64,000 nucleotides of DNA from Chrysoperla carnea (lineage: Eukaryota; Arthropoda; Insecta; Neuroptera; Chrysopidae). The stretch is taken from the NCBI RefSeq assembly GCF_905475395.1, contig NC_058339.1, positions 57,111,172 through 57,175,171 on the forward strand. The letters run 5' to 3'. The translations under genes were made by a program, and so were the position numbers. Of this stretch, positions 5,641-52,900 are shown one piece after another; position 1 is the stretch's first letter, and every line of letters starts with the position of its first letter. The notes under the pieces were generated by a model, which made no database searches, was not told the origin of the DNA, and saw only the letters and a list, made by a program, of their open reading frames with translations.

Positions 5641-6172
5641 TTATACCATGTATATGTGAAATATATCATAGTATATTAAGTTTAGTCCCAAGTTTTTAAC
5701 GCTTAAAAATAATGATGCTACAAACAAAATTTTGGTATAGGTGTTCATAAAATACCTAAATAGTCCATTTCCAGTTGTCTGTCCGTCTGTCTGCCCGTAA
5801 GCACGATAACTCAAAAACTAAAAGAGATATCAAGCTGAAATTTTTATAGAGTGCTTAGGACGTAAAAAGTGACGTTCAGTTCGTAAATGAGCAATGTAGG
5901 TCAATTGGATCTTGGGTCCGTAGGACTCATCTTGTAAACCGATAGAGAGAGAACTAAAATTTAAATGTAAACAATGTTCCTCATAAAAAATAAACATAAT
6001 AAATATGTATTATATGGGAATAACAGTTATGAATGTGTGACTATCTAAGAGTGCAAATCATTCTTTACTTACGTGATGTCAAAAAACAAACGATTGCGTA
6101 ATCAACACTGTCTATACATGATATTTCAACAAGTAACTCAGTCAATTGTTTGTTTTCACTTGTTTTTTGTTG
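5641..6172 (+). mobile_element. INE-1/DINE-1-like repeat, copy 1
   Basis: This copy begins TATACCATG and continues to GTATATTAAGTTTAGTCCC. It has a (GTCY)n proto-microsatellite near 5775-5800 and a long conserved middle ('ataactcaaaaac', 'ttgtaaac'). It ends with an AACAA..TTGTT hairpin followed by TTTTCACTTG and a T-run. Drosophila INE-1/DINE-1 elements share the order: a TATACC start, a GGTATACTA-like block, (GTCY)n, then a 3' hairpin. I infer a non-autonomous Helentron-type element. Copy 2 lies just downstream in the opposite orientation. Confidence 0.65.
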
Positions 6173-6332
6173 GTTTTTTTTAGTAACAACATGAATATTT
6201 TGTTTGAAACTTATTTTGAGTTCAAATAATTTGTTTTATATTTTTTTTGTTTTTTTTTTTTTTTTTTCAAACTTAATATGCCAATTTAATATGGTTTACT
6301 TTATATACAACTGGAAAAAATAAAAATTTATA

Positions 6333-7001
6333 TGAAACAAGTGAAAACAAACAATTGACTGAGTTAATTGTTGAAATACCATGCATAGTCAGTGTTGATT
6401 TCTTTATCACATTACACATACATACATGTGACAGATACATAACTGATAATCAAGTATAGTACATATGTAAATGACTTTATAGGTTTCTGCATTACCGACC
6501 GACATTTAGTGTATAGTTTGTACACATATTATAAAATTTCCGCCTAATTGGCGCCCTCACGGGTAAACAGTGATGTTTACGAAAAAATGTTTCAAACAAA
6601 AGTTTTTTAATTTTTTATAAGGAACATTTTTTACATTTAAACTTTTGTTCTATCTCTAACGGTTTACAAGATGGGTCCTACGGACCCAAGACCCAATTGA
6701 CCTATGATGCTCATTTACGAACTTGACCTGACTTTTTACGTCCTGAGTACGCTGTAAAAATTTCAGCTCGATATCTTTTTTCGTTTTTGAGTTATCGTGT
6801 CCACAGACGGACGGACAACCGGAAATGGACTAATTAGGTGATTCTATGACCACCTATGACAAAATTTTTTTCCTAGCATCATTATTTTTAGGCGTTACAA
6901 ACTTTGGACTAAACTTAATGTACTATGTATATTTCATATATACATGGTATAATGGACTAAACTTAATATACTATGTATATTTCATATATACATGGTATAA
7001 A
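6333..7001 (-). mobile_element. INE-1/DINE-1-like repeat, copy 2 (inverted)
   Basis: Reverse-oriented copy of the family: it starts on + with CAAGTGAAAACAAACAATTG (the 3' hairpin end) and finishes near 7001 with CATGGTATA (the 5' end). The GTCY tract appears as 'cagacggacggacaacc' near 6805-6822. The 5' end is duplicated: a ~48-bp block containing 'ggactaaacttaat' and 'catggtata' occurs at about 6905-6953 and again at 6954-7001. The block GTAAACAGTGATGTTTAC near 6564 is shared with the other copies. Confidence 0.65.
6905..7001. repeat. Tandem duplication (~48 bp x 2)
   Basis: Two near-identical units of about 48 bp, each running from 'ggactaaacttaat' to 'tacatggtata', lie head to tail at the outer end of the inverted INE-1-like copy. 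They differ at very few positions, which suggests a recent local slippage or unequal exchange. Confidence 0.75.
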
Positions 7002-7160
7002 AAGAAAATAATGTATTTCTGTATAAATATACAATCTTGATAAGATGAATAAACATTATTGTCTTCTACTAGTATAGTAAGTAGTATATTATATGGACAT
7101 GACCTTTCAAAATTACAAAATTATAAAATATTAAAATGTATCAGATCTGAGTAAGTATAC

Positions 7161-7900
7161 AGGGTGAGCCATTTTAATCAATACACCTAAACATCTCGTT
7201 TTTTAGTTAACCTAGTAAACCAATTAAAAAATAACATAAACAAAAGGTACAGAGTTTGATGAGGGATATCATGTTCTGACATCAGATTAGACCCTGTTCT
7301 TCGGGTTTCTTTAATAGCCAATTTAGATCTTAAACGGTTAGAGATAAAATAAAACTTTAATTTAGAAAGTTGATCCTCGTAAAAAAAAACTAACAATTTT
7401 TGTCTAAAAAATTTTTATACAAAAACCTTAGCTAAAGAAGAAAATGCGGTTTAAAAATATGTCATTATTGCATTTAATCCAAAGAAAATACGGGGAAATA
7501 CGGAAAAATCTTTTAGGCAAAAGTTATCAAAGGCTATAGACTACTATAGAGGACATTCACCTGTGTCCATAACCTTGACCTAGATTTATTGATAAACTTT
7601 AAGCGTATTTTCTTTCGATTAAATGCAATAATAACACAGTTTTAAGTCGCATACCTCCGAAAGCTAACATTTTTTGAGAAAATGCTTTAAACAAAAATTG
7701 TTAGTTTTTTTACGAGTTTAGTTTTTTCTCTCTTACCGTTTAGGATCTAAATTGGCTATTAAAGCAACCCGAAGAACTAAGTCCAACCTGATGTCGGAAC
7801 ATGATGCCCCCCATCAAACCTTGCAGCTTTTGTTTAAGTTATTTTTTGATTGGTTGACTATAAAACGAGATATTTATGTGTATACATTAAAATGGCCCAC
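7161..7900. mobile_element. Fold-back element, ~250-330 bp arms
   Basis: The left end reads AGGGTGAGCCATTTTAATC and the right end reads ATTAAAATGGCCCAC. The arms continue as imperfect inverted copies: left 7161-7410 against right about 7690-7900, with an inner matched pair near 7442-7492 and 7600-7655. Shared blocks include 'ttcgggtttctttaatagccaatttagatc'-type sequence and 'ctaacaatttttgt'. No intact coding frame is present. The 'agggtg..ccatttta' start is typical of fold-back MITEs in insect genomes; that classification is an inference. Confidence 0.65.
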
Positions 7901-10153
7901 ATAGACAACTTACGTTCCAATAGAAATTTTTTCAATCTGTTACCAGTTACGAACTTAAGAATTTTTAGTCCTCTGCGTCTAATAGGGCAGATGAAAATTT
8001 GAAATAACTAAATGCCTGTGTTAACACAAGACAATCGAAAGTATTGTTAGCTACCGGTCTATTCATCTGATTTTAATATAATTTAATTTACTCGTCCATT
8101 TCAGACGTGAATTAAAAATACTTAATTATGTGAATTAATAATTATTACTCAATATACTTTTATTGTTTTGGTTGTTGTTGTTGTCAGTGATTTGCAGTCA
8201 GGGTTAAATCTACATATAAAAAAATGTTGATTTATTCATAACAATTTTATCAAGGTTACAATCAATGCACAACCAAAGTTTAATCATATTATTATTGAGA
8301 ATAATTGTGATCTAATTTATAAGTAACAATCTTTATCAGATGGAAGTTCCCATAAAAATGTAGATGAGTAATACAGAATTTATCAGAATTTATTTGACAA
8401 AATAGATTAGAATCAATAGTGATCCAAGTATCATTTGAACTTTTTTATTTAAGTTGCAATGTTTGGATATATGTATGCATGTTTGTTCGGGTTAAATCTT
8501 ACAACTCAATTTTAAAGCAGTTATTCTCAATCAATCAAACTGAAATTTTGCATACATGTATAGTTTAGATGACAATGCAGAGTGACGTCAATCTGAATCC
8601 AATATGGTGATTTTTTTCGCTCTTGCGTTATATCAAATGACTCCCATAGTATCAAATTAAAGGGTTTGCTGCGAAGAAAACGAATAACAAATATAAATCG
8701 CATGTTAATGCATTTTTATGGTAAACTTCAAGTAAGAATTCAATTTAAAGGATTTTGATATATCCTCTTGTTTGGATTATGAGATCGAATCTTGGAGCAA
8801 ATCCCGACGCAGTCTAGAAAGATTTTTTTCGTTATCAAAACTTTAAATTGCTACGCATATTGCTAAAACCACCAATGGAATAAGAGTCGAAAATTTGTGT
8901 GCACTAGCAACGTGACTGATAATAATAATGCTGAAGGTTATTGCTATGTAAAGCAACTTACTACACACGAACTACAAGGTTAAATTTACAATTTACCAAT
9001 AAATAATAGCCGAAACATTTTAATTTTTATGCAAATTTGAGATCGATAACATCATTAATATGCTTATAACTTCTTTTTGAATTTCAAATAGGTGTTTTAG
9101 ATTCATTACTGTAAGTTCCTTAAACCGGAAAGTTAATAAAAAATTTTTATTTTTTATTTATAATAGGAACTTATCTATTACAACTACCTTAAATGGTTTT
9201 TTTCTAAAAAGACATATTTAATTGATTTGTAAGTAAAAAATTTGGTATGAAATAATCATAAGGCCTTCAGTTATATACAGAAAAGCATATGGCTACATAT
9301 CAGTTCATTATCAAAAGTTTATGTTATAAAAATTATAGTTTATACCTTTTTAAACTAAACTTTTGTTCATATCACGTGTATTTTGGCATATTTGATTCAC
9401 TAGGCACATGTGTTTGGCAATTATATGGAAATAGTTCCACTTCTTTGTACAAAGTCAAGAAAGTTTTGTAATTTAGAAAAAATTCTGTGTAGTTTCGTGA
9501 ATTCATTTCGAAGAATATCAGCATGTCTGTAGTAAAAATTTTCTTGAAAAAAATTTAAAACGTACACGGAAGTCATATGATGTCCTGATCAGATTTTAAA
9601 CAAGATAAATTAATATTTTTGGTACTTGGCTCTTTTGAAAGACTCACATAAGAATGAATTACAAGAGGTATAGAGGAAGCATCAATTCTGACGACAGAAG
9701 TATGGTTGATCATTTGCAGAATGAACTAAAGAAAATATGTAATTAAGTTCTTCTAATTTATAAAATTTTTGTTAATATGACATTAAAAACAACATTATTT
9801 TAACTAGGCCTTTTTGTCTACGTCATCGATGAATTTGTTATTTTATTATATACATTTAAATTAAAAAATTTCATACACATAGCTTGTATGTTTTGAATGG
9901 TTCATACAATTTATTTCTCAAAATATAAGTTTATAAAAAACTCAACCATGTTACTTCTAAAAGTGTCTTAATTGTCAAAATAGTATAATGTTTAAAGAAT
10001 ATCGCGATTTGTTGGTGAAATAAACGAACTTATCAGAAATCCTAGTCGATAATGTAGGAAAAGAAATGTTTAAATATGGATAATCACATTTATATGAATG
10101 TGTGGTTGAAAATAAATGTATAGATATGTGATATATAATTCTTTGTGTATTTT
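7901..10153. other. Gene-free intergenic sequence
   Basis: No gene or bounded repeat is supported. A short frame near 9640-9740 reads as a polar peptide on +, but it has stops on both sides and no splice context. Confidence 0.4.
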
Positions 10154-10752
10154 TATACCATGCATATATGAAATATACATAGTATATTAAGTTTAGTCCC
10201 AAGTTTGTAACGCTTAAAAATAAAGATGCTAGGAAAAAAATTTTGTCATAGGTGTTCATAGAATCACCTAATTAGTCCATTTCCGGTTGTCCGTCCGTCC
10301 GTCCGTCTGTGGGCACGATAACTCAAAAACGAAAAAAGATATCGAGCTGAAATTTTTACAGCGTACTCAGGACGTAAAAAGTGAGGTCAAGTTCGTAAAT
10401 GAGCATCATAGGTCAATTGGGATAAACCGTTAGAGATAGAACAAAAGTTTAAATGTAAAAAATGTTCCTTATCAAAAATTAAACAACTTTTGTTTGAAAC
10501 ATTTTTCGTAAACATCACTGTTTACCCGTGAGGGCGCCAATTAGGCGGAAATTTTATAATATGTGTACAAACTATACACTAAATGTCGGTCGGTAATGCA
10601 GAAACCTATAAAGTCATTTACATATGTACTATACTTTATTAGTTATGTATGTGTCACATGTTTGTATGTGTAATGTGATAAAGAAATCAACACTGACTAT
10701 GCATGGTATTTCAACAATTAACTCAGTCAATTGTTTGTTTTCAATTGGTTTT
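10154..10752 (+). mobile_element. INE-1/DINE-1-like repeat, copy 3
   Basis: Long copy of the family: TATACCATGCATATATG start, 'gtatattaagtttagtccc' block, (GTCC)3-GTCTG tract at about 10287-10312, 'cgataactcaaaaacg' and 'gtaaacatcactgtttac' conserved blocks, then the AACAATTAACTCAGTCAATTG hairpin near the 3' end. The terminal CACTTG of other copies is changed here to CAATTG. The 95-codon frame on - at the 5' end is a by-product of the repeat. Confidence 0.7.
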
Positions 10753-17735: not shown

Positions 17736-18458
17736 TCCATAGTTTGTAAAGATGCATATGATATTAACAGAGGCAATTCTACTCATTGTTGTGCATACTC
17801 AACACCAAGTATAGCCCACTTCTCTCTAATCTTTAGAATTAAATAATTCAAAGAAGCGCTACAGAACAACAATAGAGCTTTTATTTAGGATGCACCAATA
17901 TAAACTATAAAAATAACAATTTGAACCTACAGAATGGTTATGGCTTTTATATCTATGAAAGGAGTTACTGTGTGATTATTATTTATAAACAAATATGACT
18001 CTGCCTTTGGTAAATAGTTTTACACTGTGATAATAAATCATCGTTCGATATTTTGAAACAGAATGAATTCCGAGTCAGAAATGTGCTCGAGAAACTTAAA
18101 ATGTAATTCGCCAATTACATTAAAACTAAGGATATTTTGAGTCGTAGCTTAACCTATTGGAAAATTTTTCTGATTGTACCATTCAGCGCCAGAAAAATAC
18201 ATGAACACCAACATTATTTTCTCAAATGGTTAGAGCATCCATCCAAATATATTATATAATTTGTGAATTATTAGTTCGCCGAGCATATTTCGACCATGGG
18301 ACTTTCATTCGATTCATCGCGACAAAAATACATCAATAAGTACATTTCCAAAATGGGTTTAAGTGGAGCTCAAAAAAACTCCTAATTTTGAAATTACGAT
18401 CGAGTGAAAAAATACCTCTTATCGTAGAATAGCCCGTGTATGTGGATGAGTGTGTTTT

Positions 18459-19005
18459 TATACCATGTATATAAAATATACCAGGGTATACTAAGTTTAG
18501 TCCCAAGTTTGTAACTCTTAAAAATATAGATGCTATGAACAAAATTTTGGTATAGGTGTTCATAAAATCACCTAATTAGTCCATTTTCGGTTGACTGTCT
18601 GTCTGTCTGTCTGTCATCACGATAACGCAAAAACGAAAAGAGATTTCAAGCTAGAATATTTATAGCGTGCTTAGGACGTAAAAAGTGAGATCGAGTTCGT
18701 GAATAGGAAAATAGGTCTATTGGGCCTTGGGTCCATCTTGTAAACCGTTAGAGATAGAACAAAAGTTTAAATGTAAAAAATGTTTCTTATAAAAAAATAA
18801 ACAACTTTTGTTTGAAACATTTTTTCGTAAATATCACTGTTTACCCGTGAGAGCACAAATTATGCGAAAATTGTACAGTATGTATTATATGGGAATATCA
18901 GTTATATATGTGTGACATGTATGTATGTGTAATGTGATCAACAAATTATGTCTATATCTATAACATGGTATTTCAACAATAGTCAATTGTTTGTTTTCAC
19001 TTGTT
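18459..19005 (+). mobile_element. INE-1/DINE-1-like repeat, copy 4
   Basis: It begins TATACCATGTATATAAAATA and continues CCAGGGTATACTAAGTTTAG, the copy in which the likeness to the INE-1 'GGTATACTAG' block is clearest. A (GTCT)5 tract lies at about 18594-18616. The 3' hairpin is partly deleted (AACAATAGTCAATTG), and the copy ends TTTTCACTTG followed by T-runs. Confidence 0.7.
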
Positions 19006-20669
19006 TTAATTAAAATCTTTAAAAAGCATTTTAGCTGGAAAATTTTATTTTCATCTGAAAAATATCTATTTTAATACAACATTTGTTCTTCAAGTACATA
19101 TTATACATATAAAGTATAGTTAGTTGTTGATAAGACTTATAAGTGAAACAATAATGTATTGTTCTTATTATAAAATATAATACACAGTATTTTAAAAGCA
19201 ATATATTTTTCATTCAAAAACAAAGTTTAAAAAAAATTCAACAAAACAATATTGTAGTTTAAAAATATAAAAAAACGATCAAGTGTGAACAGAAACCCTG
19301 TTAAGTATTCAGAAAAAAAAAATCCCGTTTAAAGAGTACCAGCTACTAACAGAAATGCATCAATCAAATCGTATATGCCCCTTAATATTTATATTATTGG
19401 AAACGTACTCATTAACTATTGTACTCACTACCGCAAGGAGAAAATACGGCATCGGGGATAAATAAGTTTGGGCCCTTACTCCCAATCATTTCAACAAACA
19501 CTATGTAATATGGCACAATAATATATGCTGATTTTAGGAGGCAAAGGGTAATCAAAATTTGTAGGCTTTGTTATTTTATTGAATCAACACACCTCCAAAG
19601 ATATTTCTCAAAATTTTTTGTTAAACCAACAAATGAGCAGATGAACAGATTATTCTTCAATTTTAAGAATTACTGCTCAATAAGAAATATTTCCGCGCCC
19701 CCGTAAGAAACAGAGCTCTTCACTTACAAGAATTTTCGCTGAAGAAAAATTTGCTAGGTTAAACACAATAAAAGCAACAATAATTTTTAGTTTCATGTTG
19801 TAATGGTCTCTAGAAACGGTCACATTAATATTGCCACCTTCTCTATTATTTGGTACGATATCCTAAAACATCATGTTGATATTATAATACTTAATAATTT
19901 TAATTGTTAGTACTCTAGCATATTAGTACTTGGTAATGATTTATAAATTACAGTTAAGGCTACAGATTTTCAACTGTGGGGTCATATAAAAATATAAAGA
20001 AAAAAATGTTATCAAGCCGATCGAAAATTCGTCATCCAAATTAAGAGAAACAGTGTGGTGTTTTCCGTAAGAGACGAGAGAAACAAGACCAATATATTTT
20101 TGTATTTGACAGATATTTTTTCCTTTAATCGAATATAAAATTAAGATAAAAGGTAATATGACTGGTAGGAGTCTCAATTTTCTGGTTTTTTCAAATTAAT
20201 TTTAGATTAGAAAACATGTTACCATATGGCTACGCCGGACTGGAAAGGATTACATCTATTAAAATGCACCTTTTTATCACAAAACTTCAAATTGTTGTTA
20301 ATTATTTTAATAACAATATTACTTTTTCTTAAATTTTGTCAAAACTGTGGAATAGAGACAGCACGAGTTTCAAAACAGGACAATTGATAGGCTACTCTCG
20401 CCTCGACTTTAAACTATGATGCAGATAAAAATTAGCATTGCATTAAAATGGAATTCAGAGTTCGTTAGTAGTTATTAATATAAACGTAATTTTCAAAAAC
20501 ATTAATTTTTGAAGGGATAATATTCAAAATTTAACAATTAACTAAAAGAAGTTCAGAATTAAGAACCTTTTTATGAAAATTTCAGACAGGCAAACGAAAA
20601 TGAACTAATTTTCGAATATGATTTTATGAATACCTAATATCAAAATTTATGTTGAAGCCTCAATATTTG
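19006..20669. other. Gene-free intergenic sequence
   Basis: No gene or bounded repeat is supported. A 78-codon frame on - near 19941-20177 has no recognisable features and no splice context. Confidence 0.4.
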
Positions 20670-20672
20670 TAC

Positions 20673-20733
20673 GCCTTAAAAACTTCGGACTAAACCTAAT
20701 ATACTTTGGTATATTTCATATACAGGGTAAAAT
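20673..20733 (-). repeat. INE-1-like repeat, 5'-end fragment
   Basis: The sequence 'aaacttcggactaaacctaatatac' followed by 'ggtatatttcatata' is the reverse complement of the first ~60 bp of the INE-1-like family. The rest of the element is absent. Confidence 0.65.
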
Positions 20734-23424
20734 TAAAAAATAATAAATTTTCGTAGCCCGTTCATAAATGATCGCTAAATAAAACCTCCCAATATCGTCA
20801 CTGCATGAAAATAAACTAATATCATATATCAATAATTGAAGTTCAAAGGTTAGTTACGTAGGAATTAACACTGATTTCTGATATTAGTCACGAATTGTAA
20901 ACTATATTATAATTAACAATAAACTCGAAAACAAATCGATTCCCAATTAATAATTTACTTGAAATTCATGCATAGTTCGCATAGAATTGAAACTATATCG
21001 TTGCGTTTAGAACCGAATTTAACGCCGTGAATAATTGAATTACGTATACAGATTACCCAAAATTATGACTTGACTAAAGAATTACAAGTTTTAAACAATA
21101 ATAAAATGTAATTCTTTATCAAATACCATCAACTTTCCTATAGCTAACTGTTTACGTTTTCGTGGAAGACGAACATTTTTAGATTGCAAACTGATTTTAA
21201 CATATTTTTAAGTTGTGATGGGCTAGTAAAGTGCTTGGTATTATGGCATGAAGGAGGTGTTGTAAATTCAAATATCCTAAATACATCTTAATTTCTCCAC
21301 ATTAATTTAACATTTATGTCATAATTTTGCCTGTATTTCTTAATAAATGGGATATATTTTTAATATAAGGTGAAAATAGCAAATTTGCTGCCACTGGCGC
21401 TCTGTCTCAGTTCTTCATTCAACGAATAATGACTTGTTGATTTTATTTTTAAATAAATAAACAGCATTAATTAATTCAGTTCGTAATTAATATTAAGTTA
21501 TAAAAATTATTATACAATATATTATTAATTATTTTTATAAATTAAAAAAAAGTTTATGATTATATAGTTTTACTACACAACATTCTGTAAAATAAATAAT
21601 TTTACTTAAGGTTAGTTATGTATTTATGACTTTAATTAATATGCAAATTTTCAAGTGTCGGAAATAATATCTCATGCAAGATAAGTATTATCTTCGTGCA
21701 CGCTTTTAATCATAGATCAGGTTGCGGAAGAAGTTTAGTTTAGTTTTGAAAGCTTTGGAGAATTGTGATGTCATAGAAAATATCACACAGTCTTAAAATA
21801 CTCTATGAGGCCCAAAATTGAGCTTGAGAATTGTTGCAGTTACCCTCAACAGCATCACAAAGAGGATTTTCGAAGATAGCTCTAAGTACTCCTCAAGTTA
21901 TCGAATAACTCGAGAAGTACTTTTTCGAAAATTCCTTTGATGCATTTTCTTCATTTTCACAAGTATATAGGTGCAAATCTATCAGCATTTCACTTTTGTT
22001 TGAAAGTTCATGCTGCTTAGAATTTTCAATAGTTTTTTCAAACTTCGGGCAACATTACGAAATCTTGTCGAGTACCAGCATTATCATTAAAACTTAGACA
22101 CGACTAAGAAAGATCCCTTAGAGATTTTTGCTTTAGTAACAAATGTAAGGTACGTACCAAAATTTTTAGATCAAAGAGAAGCAAGATAGGTTGTTGCAAC
22201 TTGAGCGAATAATAACTGCTAATATTAATTTAATCAATACCATTTTAGCAAAATATATTAAAGCTTTTTTGTTTTTGAAAGTTTATTTTCCGTTAAAGCA
22301 TCGCTTCAAAAATTGCTAGAGGCCTGATACAGTTCAAATTAATTTAAATACTAGTTCAATGATGAAATTAGTTATGGCATATTCAAAACATAAGAGGAAA
22401 TCAGTTTGTAAGTTCTTGGAAATTGGCATTGAATTATAAACGGGTAGCAGAATTTTAGTTTCGAACAAACTGTGCCTACCCTTCAAAATTTTAACAGACA
22501 GTAATGATTAATAATTGTGAGTTTCCATTAGCAAATCCGTATGGCGAACCCTAATGACTTGAATCGATGTTTTTTTATAACACAAGGACATATTTCACAC
22601 ATTAACCGAAAATTTATTTAGGAGGACTCCGGATACTTATTTATCCCTAGCTCCATTGAAAATACTATGAATCTTGACTAATTTAAAAATTTATTGGTAA
22701 TATATTTGAATATATTATTATTCAACTAATCAACTATATTTCAAATTTCGTGGGCTACTTACAGTAATAAAAGCTTAATTGACAGTAAAACACAGGCGGA
22801 TTGATGGAAAATTTATAATCCCGCTTTCAGTATTTTTGAATAAGCCTTTTTTCGTAATTACTTACTTTAAGGTGCCGTTCTAGTAGGTATTTATTTCATA
22901 GCCCTTAACATTATGAATTAATAATAATTGTATAACATTTTTGTTTTATTCAAAAACAATTTCGATATATATAACAAATAAAATTTTATATAGTGAATAA
23001 GATTATAAGAAGGACATCAATTTTATAAATGAATAAACCAAAATAAACAAAAAAATATTTTATCATACTTGCAAATAAAAATAGACAAAAATTAATAAAT
23101 TCATTCAAAAATAAAAGACATTACGAAAAAAAAGCGTTACATATTCTTACCAAATTATTATAAAATTTGCCTTTAACAAAACACACCGTCGATAACATTT
23201 TTAAATTTTACGATTTCATTATGATTTATCAAATAATTTTAAATTTATCAATTATTAATGTTTAATTATATATTAAAAATCGAAAGATATTTTATTTTTA
23301 TTATTTCACAAACATTCAACACAGATTACAATCAATTAATTAATATTTTCTTCACAAATTTTCAACGATAATATTATAAACAACACACTCCTTACTCAAC
23401 TAGTGTTAAACGCTTACTGGTTGA
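20734..23424. other. Gene-free intergenic sequence
   Basis: AT-rich sequence without a supported gene. Stretches near 21480-21600 and 22920-23330 are almost pure A/T. Confidence 0.45.
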
Positions 23425-37391: not shown

Positions 37392-37404
37392 TACCCAGAC
37401 AGCA
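37392..37404 (+). repeat. Left terminal inverted repeat with TA
   Basis: TACCCAGACAGCA; the exact inverse occurs at 43747-43759. A longer match is not evident, so the TIR proper is about 11 bp plus TA. Confidence 0.9.
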
Positions 37405-37748
37405 CGCAAATCATAAAGAATCCAGTACGGATTCATTTAAAGGATTTCTTACCGGAGTCTTATTACGGCTTCTTACAGAATTCATTTTTAAGAGGTCCTA
37501 AAAAAGAATTCTTCAAGAACCTCAAACAAAGACTTCAGATTTTTGACACTTGCAAGTGTTCTTTTTTCTCAATTCTTACAGTATTCAAAAATAAGAACAC
37601 CTGAAGACATTTTTAATCTGTTCTAGACTTACGCATGCGCAATGCGTCTTATGAAAATGAATGGTTGTGTTTTCTAACCAAACAATTCTGTTTATTTATA
37701 ATTATTTACTTTTTCTCACTCAAAGACTTTTTTCCATTATAAAAAAAA

Positions 37749-39794
37749 ATGATTCCACGGAAACCATTCGCGGAATTATCTAAAAGTCAAAAAAATCGAA
37801 GACTACAAAGAACTCGGCTTGATCATGACTCAGGTGATGATGGTCCGCAGTTACTTCAAAGTTTTTGTTTTGATGAGCGAAAAAATGATAACAATATCAT
37901 TAATCCTGGCATCGAACTTCATGGTAACATCGTTTGTGATGAAAATGTCTTTAATTTTGTGCACACGAATGATAGTGAAAATGGTGTTGCAGCGGAAAAT
38001 GTTAATCTTGAAATAAATGAGGAAACTCTGAAATTAGATTCAAAAATGGACCTAGGACGTCAAATTGCACAGTGGCAATGTCAATTTAATATTTGCCAAG
38101 CAGCAACTGGAGGTTTATTAAAAATACTTAGTAAAGTTGAGTCAATAGAAGAGTTAAAAAAACTGCCAAAAGACCCTCGTACTTTAATGGGCACACCGAA
38201 AACTACCGTTATACGTTCTGTACCACCTGGTGAATATTTCCATTACGGGTTAAAGCAAGGATTGATTGATCAATTGACAGCTATTGGAGCAAGTAAATTT
38301 CCTACAAACATTCAAATACATGTGCACATTGACGGACTACCTATTTCAAAAAGTTCCAAACAGCAGTTGTATCCAATATTAGCAGAAGTTTATCCGAAAA
38401 TTACGACACCTTTTGTCATCGGAGTATATCATGGACTTGGTAAACCTGGTGACTGCAATCAATTCCTCGAAGAATTTATTGATGAATATAAAAAATTGAA
38501 ATCAGGTTTTGTATTTGACGGATATCAGTTTTTTGTGACTATTAGGGCTGTTATTTGTGATACACCTGCGAGGTCTTACGTGACATATACGAAAGGTCAT
38601 AATGGATATTATGGTTGTGGTAAATGCATGCAAGAAGGTGATTATGATAATCGAATGAGATTCTTAGAAATGAATGCACCTTTACGTACCGACACAAATT
38701 TTATTGAGCGGTTTAATGAAGAACATCATCTTGGAGTCTCTATATTTGAAGAAATAGGTGTTGGTATGGTGTCTCAGTTTCCTATTGAATATATGCATCT
38801 AGTGTGTCTTGGGGCTATGAAAAAAATTATAAATTTGTGGATCAAAGGATTTCATCCCGACAAAAAAACATTAATGAAATTGAGTAGCAACCAAGTGTTG
38901 CAAATGTCGGATTTATTAACCACAATTAATAGTTGGATTCCTTCAGAGTTTGTTAGAAAAACTCGAGGGCTAGATGAAATAGATCGATGGAAAGCTACTG
39001 AGCTGAGGTTATTTTTGTTATACGTGGGTTCAGTTGTTTTTCAAACTTATATACCTGACGCTTACCTGCATCATTTTAATAGTTTACAGTGTGCAATTAC
39101 TATTTTATGTGATGAAAATAATTGTATTAGTAACAATACATGCGCGAAAAATTTATTATATTATTTTGTTGAAGAATCTAAAAAATTATATGGAGAAAAC
39201 TTTGTGATTTACAATATACATAATTTGCTCCATTTATCTGATGAAGTATTGAAATTTGGTGCTTTAGATTCGTTTAGTGCTTTTCCATTTGAAAGCTTTT
39301 TGTGTTTTATTAAAAAAATTTTGAAAAAAGGCGAAAGACCACTGCAACAGCTGCATAAAAGACTGGAAGAACGAGTTAAATGTGGTTATCACCAAGTACG
39401 AAATGAAAACATTATTACACCTGAAGTATCTGATTTTAATACACAAAAGTCTAAAAAAAGGGGGATTCTTACATATGATAAAATTAATTATGGTAATTTT
39501 AAGCTTTCTGTTCGTAAAACTAGTGACAAATTCTGTTATGTAAAAAATCATGTTGTATTTCGTATTAATAATATTTCAAAACAAAATGATGATATTATAT
39601 TACATGGCCATACATTAATTAATCCTACAAATTTAAAAAATTATCCAATTGTATCAAATTTACTTCAAATAGTTACCGGAGATGAATGGTCTAATTTAAT
39701 AAGTTTTAAAGCAAGTGACGTATTGAAAAAAGCTGTTTGCATTCCCCTTAAAAATACTTTTCATTTTTTTCCAATGATTCATTCATTCACTTGA
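37749..39794 (+). CDS. Transposase, Tnp2/Transposase_21-like, 681 aa
   Basis: A single uninterrupted exon. It contains the run typical of animal proteins annotated 'transposase domain-containing': HIDGLPIS near residue 195, PFVIGVYHGLGKP, then CDTPARS near 271, a YGCGKC zinc-ligand motif near 289, FPIEYMHLVCLGAMKK near 350, and RWKATELR near 418. Candidate acidic catalytic residues of an RNase H-like fold are D195, D271 and E418, inferred by position only. The N-terminus is basic (KNRRLQRTR), consistent with nuclear import or DNA contact. There is no frameshift or early stop. An AATAAA lies at 39967-39972. It should cut and rejoin the element whose ends lie at 37394 and 43757. The downstream DUF4806 gene is on the same strand, 580 bp away. 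Confidence 0.88.
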   Translation: MIPRKPFAELSKSQKNRRLQRTRLDHDSGDDGPQLLQSFCFDERKNDNNIINPGIELHGNIVCDENVFNFVHTNDSENGVAAENVNLEINEETLKLDSKMDLGRQIAQWQCQFNICQAATGGLLKILSKVESIEELKKLPKDPRTLMGTPKTTVIRSVPPGEYFHYGLKQGLIDQLTAIGASKFPTNIQIHVHIDGLPISKSSKQQLYPILAEVYPKITTPFVIGVYHGLGKPGDCNQFLEEFIDEYKKLKSGFVFDGYQFFVTIRAVICDTPARSYVTYTKGHNGYYGCGKCMQEGDYDNRMRFLEMNAPLRTDTNFIERFNEEHHLGVSIFEEIGVGMVSQFPIEYMHLVCLGAMKKIINLWIKGFHPDKKTLMKLSSNQVLQMSDLLTTINSWIPSEFVRKTRGLDEIDRWKATELRLFLLYVGSVVFQTYIPDAYLHHFNSLQCAITILCDENNCISNNTCAKNLLYYFVEESKKLYGENFVIYNIHNLLHLSDEVLKFGALDSFSAFPFESFLCFIKKILKKGERPLQQLHKRLEERVKCGYHQVRNENIITPEVSDFNTQKSKKRGILTYDKINYGNFKLSVRKTSDKFCYVKNHVVFRINNISKQNDDIILHGHTLINPTNLKNYPIVSNLLQIVTGDEWSNLISFKASDVLKKAVCIPLKNTFHFFPMIHSFT

Positions 39795-39966
39795 AATTTG
39801 TTTTTAGTAAACTCTTTAAATATGTGTACAACTGCTGGTATAATTTTTTATTGAGTTATTATATATGTGTTTACATTATTATTATGTGTAATTTTACTCA
39901 AACAAACAAATGCTTAACATATTTTTTGTACATATTTTGTATAAAGTTACACTTAAAAATTTATAT

Positions 39967-39972
39967 AATAAA
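39967..39972 (+). promoter_or_regulatory. Poly(A) signal after the transposase
   Basis: AATAAA lies 173 nt beyond the transposase stop. It separates the transcript from the downstream gene, supporting two transcription units rather than one. Confidence 0.4.
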
Positions 39973-40374
39973 ATTTAATACTTAAAAGTTATTTTGTGTC
40001 GATTATGTTTATTTTAGTTAAATTAAATTTTCGCGCTTTCCAACTGTCACTGCAGTTCAACTATAATAAATTGGCTTCGGCAATCTTCGTTATTGATCGG
40101 GTTTATACTTGGTCTATTAGTACACCTATAGTATACCTACCTATATCGAGCCTCCCACGTTTTTACAAAGTCCGAGTATTGTGTGTACTGTTTTATAACA
40201 TAAAAAAGTAAAGTAAGTACAAAATGTTATAAATAAAAAGGGCTGTTATTTTAATAGCGCGATAACTTATGAAAAAAAATATTATTTCAAGACATTTCAC
40301 TGTTCAATACACAATTTTTAAATGAACATAAAAATTAACCTCACTTTTAATTGTAATACTAATTTTTTTTTTAG

Positions 40375-42586
40375 ATGTATTTTGTTGTATTTTGCGAAGA
40401 TTGGTGTTCAACTGTTCCAGAAAACTGGATTTTTATAGAAGAGAAAGTAGTTAAATGGCCTCCAAAAAATGATAATGTAACAGCAGCTTGCAAGAAAAAT
40501 ATCAAGCCGAATAACAATTGGCTGACTAAAAAATACACCAGACTGTTTGGACCTTACAGTAAGAACTTAATTTTTTAATTTATAAAAACAATTATACTAA
40601 TTTTAACAAATTCCACTCGTTTGAATACAAATGATAAATAATTATAAAATAAATGAATAAATTTGTAGTAATAATTTTAATTTAATATGTAATGTTAATT
40701 TTTGTAATTTTTCAGAGACTTATGATACGGCTAGAGAAATTGAAATTGCTACCGTTAATATATCGACAAGTGACGAAGCATCATTTATAAAAGAATCGCA
40801 AACGAACGAAGAATTGCCTAAACGATCACGAAAACTGCCAGTACGCTATCATCAAAGTTCCGACAATAGTTCAACTAATAGTACTGATGATCTTGAAGGT
40901 ACGACCATCTTATATCTTATAATAATCACAAATATATGATATTTTAATTTATTTAATTTGTTAATAATAGAAATCAATGAAAAAAAAACTGGAAGCACTA
41001 CTATGAAAAATTTTGGATTTGTGCCCACTGACTCTAATAATATTATTATAGAAGATGATTTACTTGATACACAGCCCTTGGATTATGCTGATTTTTTTGA
41101 AAATCAAGATAATAATTCACAAAAAGAAGATAATAGACGTAGAAAACCATCAGTAATTAATGTTGAAGTTCTTGGTAAATATTGAACATTATAAGTTGTA
41201 ATTTGGTGAAAATTATGTTATTGTAACATGTATCATTCGTTTCCATAGACATTCCTTACAAATCAAGTGAAATTATTACATTGAAGCAAAATAGAATTCA
41301 AGAAGACAATGCTTCTAGTTGTGCTGCTCCCCAGAAGTCTCCGGAAATTAATGTTAATAATAACATACAATCTATTGCACCATGTTCTCAAGGCTGCTGT
41401 TGTAAGTATAATTTAATTCTATTAAGTTCAAGTCACAAAAATGAAGTGAGCTTTTTTACTATTACTTTAAAAACTATTTCTTATTTTATTTCAACAGCTA
41501 CATGTCGATCACAACTACATCTCATTTCTCGTAAACTTGACATTATAATCATGAACTTCAACTCTTTAAATTCTGATAAAACAAATGAAATATCTCAAAA
41601 AACTTTACTCGATGCACTACCTCAATTTGCTATTGATAAAATTGAAGACTTGAACCAATTTAACACAACGTTAACAAACACTCAAGAAGCACGCTCTCAA
41701 TTTGTAAAAAAAATATTATTATTATTATTATTATATATTCTACCTAGATTATGATTGATAGAATTAAAATGAAAGGCCTATTAGCAGAACATTTTAATAA
41801 TCTTTATTTCATAATTTATCTCGTACGTTATAAAATAACATGTTTATTTTTCCCTTATTATTTCCATCCGCTATTAAAGTTTTTTAAACGTTATGATATA
41901 AGATATTATGTCCATTTAAAAAAAAAATTATTTTGTATTATATTTTAGTGAGAATTATTGAGATTGTTTTAAAAGCGATATAAATCAATTATCAACATTG
42001 TTCGTGGTTCTGGTATTAGGTTTTTTATTTGATCGATTTTCATTTTTTCTTCATTGTATTTTCTAAATATTAATGTTTATTTGTTTCATCTATCAACCAT
42101 AATTGCGTCGTTTGTATCATGGAAATTAATTTACTTTTTAATCATTTACGTTGTGTACTGCTGTACTTTTCCAGATTAAACTCATTACATTCAGAGGAGG
42201 TTCGGGTGGTAAGAAAACGATTCGCGACATTTTAAGTTATATAATAACTGACGAATTAAGTTGCAAATTGTCATGGAGCGGCCAAAAAAATACAATTGCC
42301 GTTAAAAAAATGAAATTTATTGAAATACTAACAGGTAATCTAATAATAACGTGCAGTTAAAAATTGCAATACCTCATTATTACTATACCATTAAAAATTA
42401 AAGTTTGTACTAAAATTATATATATATAATTGTTTATTCATTTTTATGATTCTAGATACTATTGCTTCAATAAATAACATGCGAGTCACAATTAGTGAAA
42501 TCAACCAATCGATTATGACTTGGCTCCAACACGGTACTGACCGTGTCAAATATAAAAATAAAAAACACGATCAAGCGGATAATTAG
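40375..42586 (+). CDS. DUF4806-type accessory protein of the transposon, seven exons
   Basis: Exons: 40375-40558, 40716-40898, 40971-41174, 41249-41401, 41498-41703, 42175-42334, 42456-42586. All junctions are GT-AG and in phase, giving 406 aa. The N-terminal ~75 residues (CEDWCSTVPENW, VKWPP, LFGPYKTYDTA) match the domain that starts many insect DUF4806 proteins. A long acidic, Ser/Asn/Gln-rich middle follows. The C-terminal ~105 residues (ITFRGGSGGKKTIRDILSYI, LSWSGQK, KKMKFIEIL) form the DUF4806 domain. Its function is unknown; position inside the element suggests a transposition helper or DNA-binding partner. The ATG directly follows an acceptor (TTTTTTTTTAG), so an upstream non-coding exon is likely. 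A donor-like AAA/GTAAGT near 40213 could end it. Confidence 0.8.
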
Positions 42587-42684
42587 AAGCAAGCTGTTTT
42601 ATTTTTTTTTTTTATATTTATTTACATTTATTTTTTTTTTTCATATTTATAATTAATTCTTGAATAGTTCATTATATTTTATTA

Positions 42685-43308
42685 TTATACCATGCATATA
42701 TGAAATATACATAGTATATTAAGTTTAGTCCCAAGTTTGTAACGCTTAAAAATAATGATGCTAGGAAAAAAATTTTGTCATAGCTGTTCATAAAATCACC
42801 TAATTAGTTCATTTCCGGTTGTCCGTCCGTCCGTCTGTGGTCACGATAACTCAAAAACGAAAAAAGATATCGAGCTGAAATTTTTACAGCGTACTCAGGA
42901 GTAAAAAGTGAGGTCAAGTTCGTAAATGAGCATTATAGGTCAATTCGGTCTTGGGTCCGTAGGACCCATCTTGTAAACCGTTAGAGATAGATCAAAAGTT
43001 TAAATGTAAAAAGTGTTCCTTATAAAAAAATAAAAAACTTTTGTTTGAAACATTTTTTTGTAAACATCACTGTTTACCCACGAGAGCGTTAATTAGGTGC
43101 AAATTTTATAGTATGTATTAATATAGCAATTGTGTGTTGCCTATTTAAAAGTGAATATCTTTTGTTATTTACGTGACGTCAAAAAAACAAACAATTGCGC
43201 ATCAACACTGTCTATACATTTTTGTATGTGTTAAAGAAATCAACACTGACTATATGCATGGTATTTCAACAATTAACTCGAGTCAATTGTTTCTTTTCAC
43301 TTGTTTAA
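42685..43308 (+). mobile_element. INE-1/DINE-1-like repeat, copy 5 (nested)
   Basis: This copy lies inside the DNA transposon, about 100 bp after the DUF4806 stop. It starts TATACCATGCATATATG, has GTCCGTCCGTCTG near 42821-42838, the conserved 'gtaaacatcactgtttac' block near 43060, a 3' hairpin AACAATTAACTCGAGTCAATTG, and the end TTTTCACTTG followed by T. It joins sequence segments seen separately in copies 1 and 3 ('acgtgacgtcaaaaaaacaaac' and 'aaagaaatcaacactgac'). Confidence 0.75.
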
Positions 43309-43467
43309 TATAAACTTAAAAACATTTATTATGTATTATGTATAAACTGTTTTAAATAGCTTCATAATAAATAAATTATAAAATTATAGATAAAAATTTA
43401 ATTTCCCTAAAAACTATTTTTTATTATAAATTCTAAAAATTTAACTCATCAGGAAGTCATTTATCTC

Positions 43468-43590
43468 AATCAGAAATGGAAACTCTTGGAGAATTAAAAA
43501 ATCTGAATCAGAAATGGGAACTCTTAAAGAATTAAAAAATCTGAATCAGAAATGGGAACTCGTGAAGAATTGACATATCTGAATCAGAAA
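43468..43590 (+). repeat. 38-bp tandem repeat, just over three units
   Basis: Units start at 43468, 43506, 43544 and 43582 with AATCAGAAA, each running through 'tgggaactcttaaagaatt' and 'aaaaaatctg'. The period is exactly 38 bp. The array is subterminal in the transposon and could be a transposase-binding array, as in other elements with clustered subterminal motifs (inference). Confidence 0.8.
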
Positions 43591-43759
43591 AAAGGGTTCC
43601 TAATAAGTCCTTTTTTAAGAGTTCAGAAATTATTCATTAAGTGGCGCATGGAATTCTTCAAGAATTCTTGAAGAGTCCTTCGCGTTAGTAATCGGAAGTC
43701 ATAACCAGATTTGAGAATTCGGTTGAAATTCATCAGGACTTCATATTGCTGTCTGGGTA

Positions 43760-46728: not shown

Positions 46729-49197
46729 ATGGAAACAAATAATTTGCAACCCTTACAAAATTATCCAAATTACCAAAACATTCCAAACTCAAGTCGTTTG
46801 AATTGCAATCAACAGTCAATTCCTACAGTACCCCAAAAATCACATTACCTACCATATTCCATGCCACCCATATCCAGCAATATCGGAATGCCTCCTCAAC
46901 CTTTAATGTACAACACACAAAACGCTTATAATATAATGTACGGTTCTCAAACTATGTACCCAAATCAGAATTCATTCCCGCCACCACCACCAAATTTCAA
47001 TTCATACTGTTCACAATATAATACGGATCCATGGCTTACCGAAAATACACAAAACCAAAATAACAAACTGAAAGGAATTAAAAATGCTTCGGAGAAAATA
47101 ACGAATGATAAATTAAGTCCACATAGCTGTTGCTCAAGTCAAATGGATGCTATAGCTATTGGAATTTGTTCACCATTAAGTGATTCATTTAAAACTGTAT
47201 TGAATAGCGAACTTACAAATTATAGGAATTCCCAATGGCATTACAATTCAAATTTTAACACCCAAAATTTACCATCCTGTTCTCAAATTTCGAACGATAT
47301 GGATTCTTCTGTTACGCTGCAGAATAATTGTTGCCAGGATTACAGCGATGCCAAAAATTCTATCAACTCGGTTAAGTATTGCAGTATCCAAAAATCATAC
47401 GACAACGAATTAATGAAAAGTTATCCAAATAATAAATATTCAAGCGAATACTTAAATGATCCAATTTTATTTAACCTACCTCAAATACAAGAAAAACCTC
47501 CAGATAAGCCAGCACCAGGGAAGGACTTTTCCGAATATCGACAATGTGAACTCATGCCACTTACAACTTGTCAACAGGATTCATCCGAAAATGTAACACA
47601 GACAACACAATTTTTTGCTACGGAAATGCCTTGCTTAGACATTTATGGCGATGTCAAAAACGATTCCAAAAGCGATAGCCAATGTGGCGGAGAAAGTGAC
47701 ATAATTGTTGAAGAATCGGAAGATGATTCTTCGGTAAGCAGCGAGGAATGTGATATTGAAAATACAATTATTTATATTTGTGTTGTATGTAGTATAACTT
47801 CTAGTGCTCCAGATGTAGTTTTCTTTCGAGTTAATGACGAAACTCTTTTGACAAGTACGACACAAATTCCGGTTGTACAAAAATTAAGAGACATTACAAC
47901 AAAAATATTTCCAAAAAGTATTATGGACCATATATGTAATTTATGTTTACGATTGGTCAATAACGTAGATTGTTTAGAATTCCAGTTGAATAATAGTAAA
48001 AAACAGTTGATAGAAATTTGTGAAAAAGCTTCTGCAGTTCTTCAAGAAGTTGCAAATGAAACACTCGACACAACACATAATTCTCAAGAAGAAACTTTAA
48101 TAAATGATAAAACAAAAATAGACAATACTAATTTTGATTTAAATTTATCAGAAGATTTTATTCAACCTACAAATGATTTGAATTCTTCACAAAATAAACG
48201 TATTTGCAAAATTTGCAATAAATATTTTTGCCAAAGTGATTTTCATAAACATAAACAACTTCACGCAAATCATATGAATTTCAAATGTTCGCTGTGCCAT
48301 CGCAGCTTTACAATGAAAAGACTTTTAGATAATCATATGAAACGGCATAATGGTGAAAGAGATTTTCTTTGCGATCGATGTGGAAAAAATTATATTAAAA
48401 GGCATACTTTGGAATTACATTTACGTCGACATTACAATCAATTTACATTCTTTTGTGAGACATGTAAAAAGGGATTTGTTACGAATTCATCGTTGGAAAT
48501 CCATCGACGGTGTCATACAGATGTTCGTCCATACGATTGTAAAATTTGTGCGAAAAAGTTTAGGACTAACACAAATTTACAGGAACATGTTAGATATTGT
48601 TCCGGTGATTTACCGTTTGAATGTGATCAATGTGATAAAAAATTTGCTGCGGTTGCTAAATTAAATGATCATATAAAACTTAGACATGAAAAAAATTTTA
48701 AAATAACATGTGAACATTGTGGTATGGGTTTTACGAAAATGTCCGATCATAAAATACATTTGGTATCACATTCTGATGTAAAATCATTTTCATGCTCTAA
48801 ATGCCAAAAAAAATACAAGACAATTGGAAATTTAAATCATCACATGAAAGTTCATGGTGAATTACCATTTAAATGTGATATTTGCCAAAAAGGGTTTCGC
48901 AGAAAAGAAAATTATGAAATTCATAAAAATTTACATTCTGGTGTTAAACCGTTCCCATGTACGGTTTGTAGTAAAAAATTTGCGGCGCAAATACATTTAG
49001 ATGCTCATTTAAAAATACACAATGGTACAGTAAAGAAGAAAACTTGTACCGTTTGTGGGAAACAATTAACACACGGATTAACTGAGCATATGCGACTTCA
49101 TACTGGCGACAGACCTTTTAAATGTTTGCATTGTTCATTAACATTTGCTAGTAAATGTGCCTTACAAAAACACAATAAAAGAAAACATTCTATGTAA
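46729..49197 (+). CDS. ZAD-like, 12-finger C2H2 zinc-finger protein
   Basis: 822 aa in one exon. The context AAAATGG is favourable. Residues 1-330 are low-complexity, rich in Asn, Pro, Ser, Gln and Tyr with PPPPP and MPPQP runs. An acidic stretch (EESEDDSS) sits at about 325-345. C351-x2-C354 and C403-x2-C406 frame a ZAD-like domain, the arthropod zinc-finger-associated dimerisation module. From residue 493 to the end there are 12 C2H2-type fingers. The fifth ends in Cys instead of His (C2HC), and one finger (CTVCGKQLTHGLTEHMRLH) is two residues short. TGEKP-type linkers are mostly degenerate. It is expected to be a nuclear sequence-specific regulator; the target and orthologue are unknown. 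Neighbours are TRMT112 (divergent) and KLHDC4 (convergent). Confidence 0.93.
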   Translation: METNNLQPLQNYPNYQNIPNSSRLNCNQQSIPTVPQKSHYLPYSMPPISSNIGMPPQPLMYNTQNAYNIMYGSQTMYPNQNSFPPPPPNFNSYCSQYNTDPWLTENTQNQNNKLKGIKNASEKITNDKLSPHSCCSSQMDAIAIGICSPLSDSFKTVLNSELTNYRNSQWHYNSNFNTQNLPSCSQISNDMDSSVTLQNNCCQDYSDAKNSINSVKYCSIQKSYDNELMKSYPNNKYSSEYLNDPILFNLPQIQEKPPDKPAPGKDFSEYRQCELMPLTTCQQDSSENVTQTTQFFATEMPCLDIYGDVKNDSKSDSQCGGESDIIVEESEDDSSVSSEECDIENTIIYICVVCSITSSAPDVVFFRVNDETLLTSTTQIPVVQKLRDITTKIFPKSIMDHICNLCLRLVNNVDCLEFQLNNSKKQLIEICEKASAVLQEVANETLDTTHNSQEETLINDKTKIDNTNFDLNLSEDFIQPTNDLNSSQNKRICKICNKYFCQSDFHKHKQLHANHMNFKCSLCHRSFTMKRLLDNHMKRHNGERDFLCDRCGKNYIKRHTLELHLRRHYNQFTFFCETCKKGFVTNSSLEIHRRCHTDVRPYDCKICAKKFRTNTNLQEHVRYCSGDLPFECDQCDKKFAAVAKLNDHIKLRHEKNFKITCEHCGMGFTKMSDHKIHLVSHSDVKSFSCSKCQKKYKTIGNLNHHMKVHGELPFKCDICQKGFRRKENYEIHKNLHSGVKPFPCTVCSKKFAAQIHLDAHLKIHNGTVKKKTCTVCGKQLTHGLTEHMRLHTGDRPFKCLHCSLTFASKCALQKHNKRKHSM

Positions 49198-49921: not shown

Positions 49922-52900
49922 TTAATCTGTTTCCATATCTGATTCATCTTCGTTTTCGCTTCCCGATTCATCTTCACTTCCACTACTTTCGTCCTCACCT
50001 TCACTCTCAGAATCGAACCACTCTAATTGTGATAAATCATCTTTAATTACAGTTTTCCATTCATCTAATTTATGTAAGTCTAGAGAATATAAATCATTTA
50101 ACGTTAACTGTTTATCGCCATCTTCAATCATACCGCCATAAATGTATAAAATGCCCCGTTTTATCGCCATACCACAATTCATTCGTGGACTTGGCCAAAA
50201 TTCAGTAACTTGTGATAATGGAGCACTTGATGATACAGATCCGTTTGTAGATGTAGATGGACCTATTTTTACGGTAAAAATTCCATCATCTGCAATTGTA
50301 GTTTCTTTTGGAGCGGTTTCTTCATCAACTTCCATTTCATCTTCTTCATCACCACTTTCATCACTATTTTCGCCTTCGCCTTTATCTTTTCGTCTACGTT
50401 TTGGTTTATCTGATTTTTTATTTAAAGTTATCGTTCTCCAAACCAGCTTTTCTAAATCCAAACAATGAAGATCGTTGAAAAATTTTCCAGATAAATCCTC
50501 TTCATTTTCTTCCACATCAAAAACGCCACCAAAAGTATAGGCTTTATTATTAGGTGCACATGTAATTGGCATACTACACCGAGGTGATATTTTGATACCA
50601 CCTTGTTTTGATGAAATAAATTTCCATTTTGTTCCGGTAGTATCATGTTCTGCAATTAAAAACCAAATTGTGAAAATCATGTATTTGTATGGGCTTCAAT
50701 TAAAATCAGTTTGACTTGATTTTGTATTTATCCTCAGAATTTCGAATGATAACTCGAAAATTGACGTTAAATGAGATTGTTTTTGAGTACTAAATACTCT
50801 TAATATTGATTTATATTATAAACAGAAAACAAAATTTTTGATTTCATTGGTAAATTTTAACAGTATTAGCGGAGAGCCGTTAGATTTATACCTCGGAATC
50901 CAAGAGTAGTCAATGTATATTTATAAAAACTTTTTCTATAGGATTATGGGCGATATCTCAGAAACAATGCATTCAATCATTAAATGCACCCCATTTTTGT
51001 ATTTTTTGAGATCAAAATTATTTATCAATTCTTATCGGTACTTCTTTAAAAAAGTCGAAAAAAAAAAATCACAAATAAGTTTTTATTCAGAATTTTTATT
51101 TAACTCGGAATGTAGACTAATTTTTACTCAAAAAATACAAAAACCGGGTTCATCTAAAAAACTTTCACCCAAAATCCTTTCTGAGATTTTATATTTTTAA
51201 CATATTTTCGGAATATTTTAACATATATCGAGAACTACTCGTCTTATCGGTTAGTGATATAGATTATTATGTTTCTTTTGTTACCCAATTTATATACAGT
51301 GTGTCCCTTGATAGAGGTAACTATACTTGTAAATTTTCTTATTTTGCATTTTAAGACAAAAAGTAATTCTATATAAGAAGTTTTGCTTATTATGAAAAGT
51401 ATGTAGGAATATTCAAAACTTCTAAATAATGTGTAGGGTAGCTAAAAATTTGGTATCACTATTTTTTTTTTTGAGTAAACTACCCTTCGTTTTTATAAGT
51501 TGACAAAAGGTTACTAAAAATTAATAATTATGATATACAAAATATCAAGAAGATCTTTCCAACTTTGACAATTCCATTCTTATTGAATGTTTATACACAC
51601 GATAAAATAAACTTTCTTTTTAATTTTCTAAACTAGTCCAAAAAAAATTACACTCTCGGATAGTACATGTTAATTGATTTATTATTATTTTCTTTCTTAC
51701 GTTTTTTTATAATAAGAGCTTTCAAATAAAAAATGATGCTATAATTAAAGTACACGGATCTTCTTGATATTTTGTATAGAGTCATAATTTTTAATTTCGA
51801 GTAAACTTTCTTAGTAACATTTCGCCAACTTATAAAAAAGAAGCGTAGTAAAAATAAAAATAGTGATTCCAAATTTTTGGCTACCTTTTACATTATTAAG
51901 AAGTTTTTAATATTCCTACATACATTTCATAATAAACAAAACTTCTTATAAAGAATGAAGATAAAAAAAATTTGGAATTTTTTGGTAATTTCTAAGCGTA
52001 CTGATAAAATTATAAAAATCAAATATTGGTAAAACTAAAATAAAAAAAATTCATGAAATATGATATTTGTATAATATCATTTTTAAACTTACTATCTGGA
52101 GTTAGTAAATAGAAATCATTATGAACTTGTCCTTTATCAACATCTTTTTTTAATTTAGTTCTACTGTATCCACCAAATATTGCAATTTTGCCATCAGGTA
52201 ATGGTACCATATTACAACCAGATCGTGGCGGTGGTGCGATACCACTTATATCAAGTTTAGTCCACTGGTAAGTTTCTAAATTAAACGCATATACATCATT
52301 AAAATATTTGTAGTCTCTCAAATTATCATGAAAACCGCCAAAAACAATTATTTGCTTCTTTAAGCAAACCATTCTGTGCCCACTTCTTGCGCTGGGTCCA
52401 CCAGGAGCAGTTATTTTTTCCCACTTTTTTTGGTGTAGATGATATACCCACAAGTCTCGGTAATGATAAAACTGCGACTGAGTAGCACTTGTAAATTCCC
52501 CACCAAAAACCCAAAGCTGTCCTTTATTTATTGAGGTAACAACCATTTGATGACCACATACTGGTGCAGGACCACCGGGTGCTTTCACAACGGTCCACTC
52601 ATTACGAGGAATGTTATAGAAAAACAAATCATTGTAGACAAAAGTCTAAAACAAAGTTACAGTTTTATTATTGCTAAAATGTATTTTAATCGAGCATACC
52701 TTTTGACCATTGAAGTATTCCCCTCCAAATAAAATTAATTCATCTTTATCAGGATGAGATACAAATGAAAAATTACTTCTTCTTGATGGTGGTGAGACAA
52801 CAGTTTCTACAACTTTTTGTCTAGCTTTTTCTTCTTTTTCAATTTGAGCAACAATTGCTTCAATACTTTCCTATAATTATTTGCATTTTCGTGTAAAATT

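Follow-up and report, generated by a model that had tools for sequence, protein, structure and literature searches.

Within a 64,000-nucleotide stretch of the Chrysoperla carnea genome (Insecta, Neuroptera; RefSeq assembly GCF_905475395.1, contig NC_058339.1, forward-strand positions 57,111,172 to 57,175,171; hereafter the window, numbered from its first letter), positions 37392–43759 seem to us, on balance, to hold one cut-and-paste DNA transposon of the animal TRC type (transposons related to CACTA), inserted at TA and pairing a transposase with a TNPA-like partner protein that carries the domain DUF4806. Transposons of this type have already been described in animals; judging by the open-access literature searched, in which four papers mention DUF4806, this partner domain appears to be the new part. 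The element probably belongs to the TRC group, and we stop short of calling that membership proven because the group's Pfam domain was not found and its motifs were matched only with substitutions. An initial annotation, made from the letters alone, had proposed a single two-gene element, and the anatomy supports this well: the two genes share a strand, and the stretch that holds them is framed by the end sequence, which has no further copy in the window.

The span is bounded by exact 13-bp inverted ends with the sequence TACCCAGACAGCA, that is, TA plus CCCAGACAGCA, as initially reported. The left terminal inverted repeat occupies 37392–37404 (+ strand) and the right one, its exact inverse closing in TA, 43747–43759 (− strand). 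The 11-mer core CCCAGACAGCA occurs exactly twice in the window, at 37394–37404 (+) and 43747–43757 (−), and permitting one mismatch added no match (0.23 expected; at least two matches in 1 of 100 shuffles). The inverted arms measure 13 bp including the TA, and only 9 of the next 50 bases inward are identical. Exact 13-bp inverted pairs are common in an AT-rich, repeat-bearing window like the present one (28.7% G+C): 617 pairs of any composition lie 2–12 kb apart, 51 of them with at least seven G+C. After removal of pairs with both arms in 5–21 kb, where repeat copies lie, the terminal pair was the sole survivor of those 51, and none of 20 shuffled windows contained any 13-bp inverted pair with at least seven G+C. 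That the span is not one element, and that a chance pair of inverted 13-mers happens to surround two unrelated relics or host genes, we consider very improbable: only one copy was studied, which leaves some room for coincidence, but the pair stands out among those rich in G+C, of which the shuffled windows had none, two published TRC ends also begin with CCCAG, and TRC-like motifs are present in the open reading frame (ORF) between the ends. TA flanks both ends of this single copy, which is consistent with a 2-bp target-site duplication, TA being the putative duplicated target. A Tc1/mariner affiliation, considered on account of the TA duplication, was rejected, no such Pfam family being matched.

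The first gene is the transposase ORF (37749–39794, + strand, from the ORF list), whose 681 uninterrupted codons agree with the initial annotation; a possible polyadenylation signal lies 3' of it (39967–39972, +). The protein contains IQIHVHIDG at residue 188, the exact first half of TRC box I, and IEYMHLVCLG at residue 346, which is TRC box A ([LVI]-D-x-[LM]-H-x3-L-G) except for E in place of D. Among 20,000 shuffles of the protein, the first half of box I arose in 830, box A, allowing either D or E, in 5, and both in order in none. D195 and D271 are 76 residues apart and are followed by a CxxC at C290–C293, matching the TRC pattern of two aspartates about 80 residues apart plus CxxC, with D271 being our own choice of second aspartate. 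The candidate catalytic triad would be D195, D271 and E515, the last of which we take to be the third catalytic residue from the general anatomy of DDE enzymes. The roles given to D195 and D271 follow from the TRC motifs in PMC1636069, a passage of which places two aspartates of TRC proteins 80 residues apart. Searches with the 681-aa protein gave no NCBIfam family at E up to 1 and a single chain in the Protein Data Bank (PDB) by sequence, at E 2.4.

The second gene, on the same strand as the transposase, has seven coding exons that encode 406 aa, with all six introns GT–AG and the frame continuous, so that the exon structure and phase continuity first proposed for it stand. On the + strand, the exons lie at 40375–40558, 40716–40898, 40971–41174, 41249–41401, 41498–41703 (exon 5, with a weak donor), 42175–42334 (exon 6, the core of the DUF4806 domain) and 42456–42586 (exon 7, stop at 42584–42586). 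Introns contain 14–24% G+C and exons 28–37%. In the spliced protein, Pfam detected DUF4806 (PF16064) at residues 285–367 with 39.4 bits (cut-off 25; E 7.9e-10), and the exon-6 ORF by itself scored 18.9 bits, under the cut-off. The score thus rises on splicing, which is evidence that exons 5, 6 and 7 are joined as proposed; this evidence covers these three and not exons 1–4. DUF4806 has been presented as a subtype of the BEN DNA-binding domain (PMC11075544). The present protein differs from BEN domain proteins in that neither Pfam, where DUF4806 and a sub-threshold Peptidase_M28 were the only matches to the 406-aa protein, nor a phmmer search of PDB sequences, where two DnaJ chains at E ~0.9 were the only matches, returned any BEN family or chain. 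A TAT microsatellite lies at 41714–41739, just past the exon-5 donor, and may have disturbed that splice site.

Upstream of these exons, a possible donor at 40213–40214 (+) lies in the 98th percentile of GT sites, percentiles here and below coming from a rough scoring matrix. The gene likely has a non-coding first exon ending at this donor, because coding exon 1 directly follows a good acceptor and the donor at 40213 is good; equally strong donor-like sites are also present by chance within the transposase ORF. Another donor-like site, at 37425 in the 5' leader (95th percentile), makes possible an Spm-like transcript that skips the transposase.

The donor at 40213 also bears on where the gene came from. 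It suggests that the second gene has a leader of its own, as would be the case if a TRC-like transposon had captured a host gene, or held the gene of another inserted element, with no role in transposition, the chance sites of equal strength inside the transposase ORF being a caution here. Passages of papers on zebrafish, beetle and mosquito that deal with DUF4806 genes make no mention of transposons, and among the open-access passages on DUF4806 found, none links it to a particular transposon. Against such an origin, the DUF4806 gene is complete and open and follows the transposase in the same orientation, in the slot of the second product in SmTRC1 and Spm; no ends of another element were noticed around it, although no systematic search for them was made. 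In Hydra, moreover, the source of one described TRC element, DUF4806 is expanded in the same published table as transposase domains, with counts of 69 and 54 in two Hydra columns versus 6, 0, 1, 0 and 0 in five others, which we read from their abbreviations as other cnidarians. The high Hydra counts fit a mobile partner, and we regard capture of an uninvolved gene as unlikely.

The DNA just inside both ends contains candidate binding sites. The left (37405–37640) and right (43430–43746) subterminal regions both carry AGAATTC-type motifs in both orientations, and the right one includes a 38-bp tandem repeat of 3.4 copies (43463–43590) whose consensus unit contains AAGAATT. The palindrome AAGAATTCTT has two exact copies in the 64 kb, one inside each end (37504–37513, ~110 bp from the left end, and 43660–43669, ~90 bp from the right). 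AGAATTC, counted on both strands, has 7 matches in the 553 bp of subterminal DNA, against a mean of 0.49 and a maximum of 4 in 1000 shuffles; the two ends together hold five GAATTC sites (0.21 expected), and another 23 are scattered across the remaining window. The commonest 7-mer observed there is AAGAATT, with 8 copies. The palindrome pair is a firmer observation than the 7-mer excess.

Several observations weigh against the span being a TRC-type transposon with a DUF4806 partner. The element is known from one copy, and its flanks, joined as they would be in an empty site, gave four short matches in the window (18–68 bp), none of which spans the junction. In the transposase, the second half of box I has S in place of F/Y and Y in place of W, leaving the full motif unmatched, and the strict form of box A is likewise unmatched. 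Pfam returned no family for the 681-aa protein at E up to 10 (the tool's filters drop most matches above ~0.1), and Transposase_21 (PF02992), a domain of the TRC group, was thus not found in it. Single-sequence structure models of the transposase and of the exon-6 fragment reached mean pLDDT values of 33 and 59; the first is too poor to support a DDE fold, and the second, also poor, gives no structural support for a BEN fold. The exon-5 donor, TTT/GTAAAA, lies in the 38th percentile of 3017 GT sites. In a look-elsewhere control for the subterminal motif, some 7-mer reached at least 7 copies in 32 of 500 shuffles and 8 copies in 18 of 500, and the seven AGAATTC matches derive from five GAATTC sites, overlapping since AGAATTC is close to palindromic. 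Binding of GAATTC-like sites by a BEN-type protein is conjecture, and we met no report of it. Finally, the first ten end bases, CCCAGACAGC, are identical to the Tribolium TRC end at 6 of 10 positions.

Taking the span as one two-component transposon, we propose how it would move if active. The product of gene 1 would be a TNPD-like DDE transposase that cuts the CCC...GGG ends and joins them to the target with a 2-bp stagger. The product of gene 2 would be a DUF4806 (BEN-like) DNA-binding protein in a TNPA-like role: it might bind sites of the AAGAATTC type, palindromes among them, within each end, bring the ends together or recruit the transposase, and may also regulate the element's promoter. 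Binding to sites of this type is proposed because of the BEN relation and by analogy with TNPA and SmTRC1. The DUF4806 protein is a plausible transposition factor because of that reported relation, the palindromes inside both ends and the precedent of spliced second proteins. The same protein could instead be a regulator only, an element repressor or chromatin-targeting factor that stays outside the cutting complex. Passages on BEN proteins discuss them as transcription and chromatin factors (PMC10080584), and the plant protein TNPA is described as regulatory too (PMC8195511), which blurs the distinction between regulator and end-binder; the excess of the motif at both ends, on the other hand, fits end recognition, and a purely regulatory role strikes us as quite improbable.

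The initial annotation had described the element as apparently intact. Both reading frames are indeed open and the ends exact, but the element is not pristine: a nested interspersed repeat of ~625 bp (approximate boundaries 42681–43306), outside the element's own structure, lies between the gene 2 stop codon and the right subterminal region, where it interrupts neither reading frame. Subtracting this repeat gives an element of ~5.7 kb. Relatives of the repeat occur at five other places in the window, 77–87% identical in the main alignments (~5637–6165, 6324–7015, 10148–10750, 18455–19031 and 20585–20747), along with an 87-bp fragment (7331–7416). It is possibly a miniature inverted-repeat element, because some copies have TACCATGYATA at the left end and the inverted TATRCATGGTA near the right end. 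An exact pattern taken from the nested copy was absent from the viral contigs searched. Elsewhere in the window, an 822-aa C2H2 zinc-finger protein is encoded by one uninterrupted ORF (46729–49197, +) 3 kb downstream of the transposon, and two kelch-repeat ORFs within 49922–52627 (−) are probably exons of one host gene.

Relatives of the two proteins were sought in collections of viruses, prokaryotes, phages and plasmids, which are uninformative on the family's spread in animals. Transposase patterns gave 4 and 11 matches in viral and prokaryote contigs, and a DUF4806 protein pattern gave 10 in viral contigs; tblastn identified no relatives among any of these. A degenerate motif pattern matched four stretches in prokaryote contigs and none in viral contigs, and a 16-base end pattern matched eight viral contigs, which were examined by tblastn only. 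No tblastn match was obtained with either protein on 12 fetched loci (E up to 1), on the window outside the element or on phages, or with the transposase on plasmids. Rfam, NCBIfam and PDB searches by sequence yielded nothing useful.

More tentatively, and as a suggestion that we would not yet call likely, DUF4806 proteins in general could be TNPA-like end-binding partners of a branch of animal CACTA-like transposons. Were this true, many of the uncharacterised DUF4806 (BEN-like) genes found in insects, Hydra and fish would be transposon genes or domesticated from them, and animals would owe some of their BEN-type DNA-binding factors to a transposon partner protein. DUF4806 genes that genome papers give as unknown or simply count might then be explained as parts or descendants of mobile elements. 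Descriptions of animal CACTA-like elements, in the papers cited here, centre on the transposase, with an anonymous second protein added in one case; the present element, both of whose genes are open, puts a name to that second-protein slot and suggests a role for it that can be tested.

Narrow-sense CACTA elements (En/Spm) have CACTA ends and a 3-bp target duplication; the present element differs in both, with ends that start with CCCAG, confirming the initial observation that they are unlike CACTA, and a putative 2-bp TA duplication. The 3-bp duplication is illustrated by one plant CACTA example (PMC8195511). The initial annotation had further suggested a poorly described superfamily, an idea that finds no support in view of the TRC literature. 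Animal TRC elements were described in 2006 with CCC-starting ends, 2-bp repeats and Transposase_21 motifs (DeMarco et al.; PMC1636069), and CCC-starting ends with a 2-bp duplication were described again for a Hydra element (PMC4298943).

Compared with these animal elements, the present one shares with SmTRC1 and the Aedes and Tribolium TRC elements the CCC inverted ends and the CxxC, along with a putative 2-bp direct repeat and, in part, the transposase motifs. It differs from them in its lack of a Transposase_21 match, a box I without F/Y and W, and E for D in box A. Its first ten end bases are identical at 8 of 10 positions to the Aedes end CCCAGTCAAC and, again, at 8 of 10 to the Hydra end CCCAGCCAAC. 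The ends of SmTRC1 are 54 bp long, as against 13 bp here, and the passages on SmTRC1 make no mention of DUF4806; its proteins are not detectably conserved outside the transposase domain (PMC1636069). SmTRC1, an element of Schistosoma, does share a spliced second protein, likened by its authors to TNPA, and a 3' tandem repeat (PMC1636069). The Hydra element (Spongebob_HMa / EnSpm-4N1_HM; 5,836 bp) resembles the present one in its CCCAGCCAAC... ends and in having a 2-bp duplication, putative in the present case; it differs in that its authors found no exact transposase (stops or frameshifts), and the passages make no mention of a second gene (PMC4298943).

In plant CACTA elements, TNPA binds subterminal repeats, and TNPA and TNPD are both needed (PMC8195511). 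Plant tnpA candidates have been filtered with the Pfam family Transposase_24, whereas the present partner carries DUF4806, and the ends here are not CACTA. What maize En/Spm and plant CACTA elements share with the Chrysoperla element is the pairing of a transposase with a multi-exon partner (TNPD and TNPA in the plants), together with direct and inverted subterminal repeats (PMC8195511).

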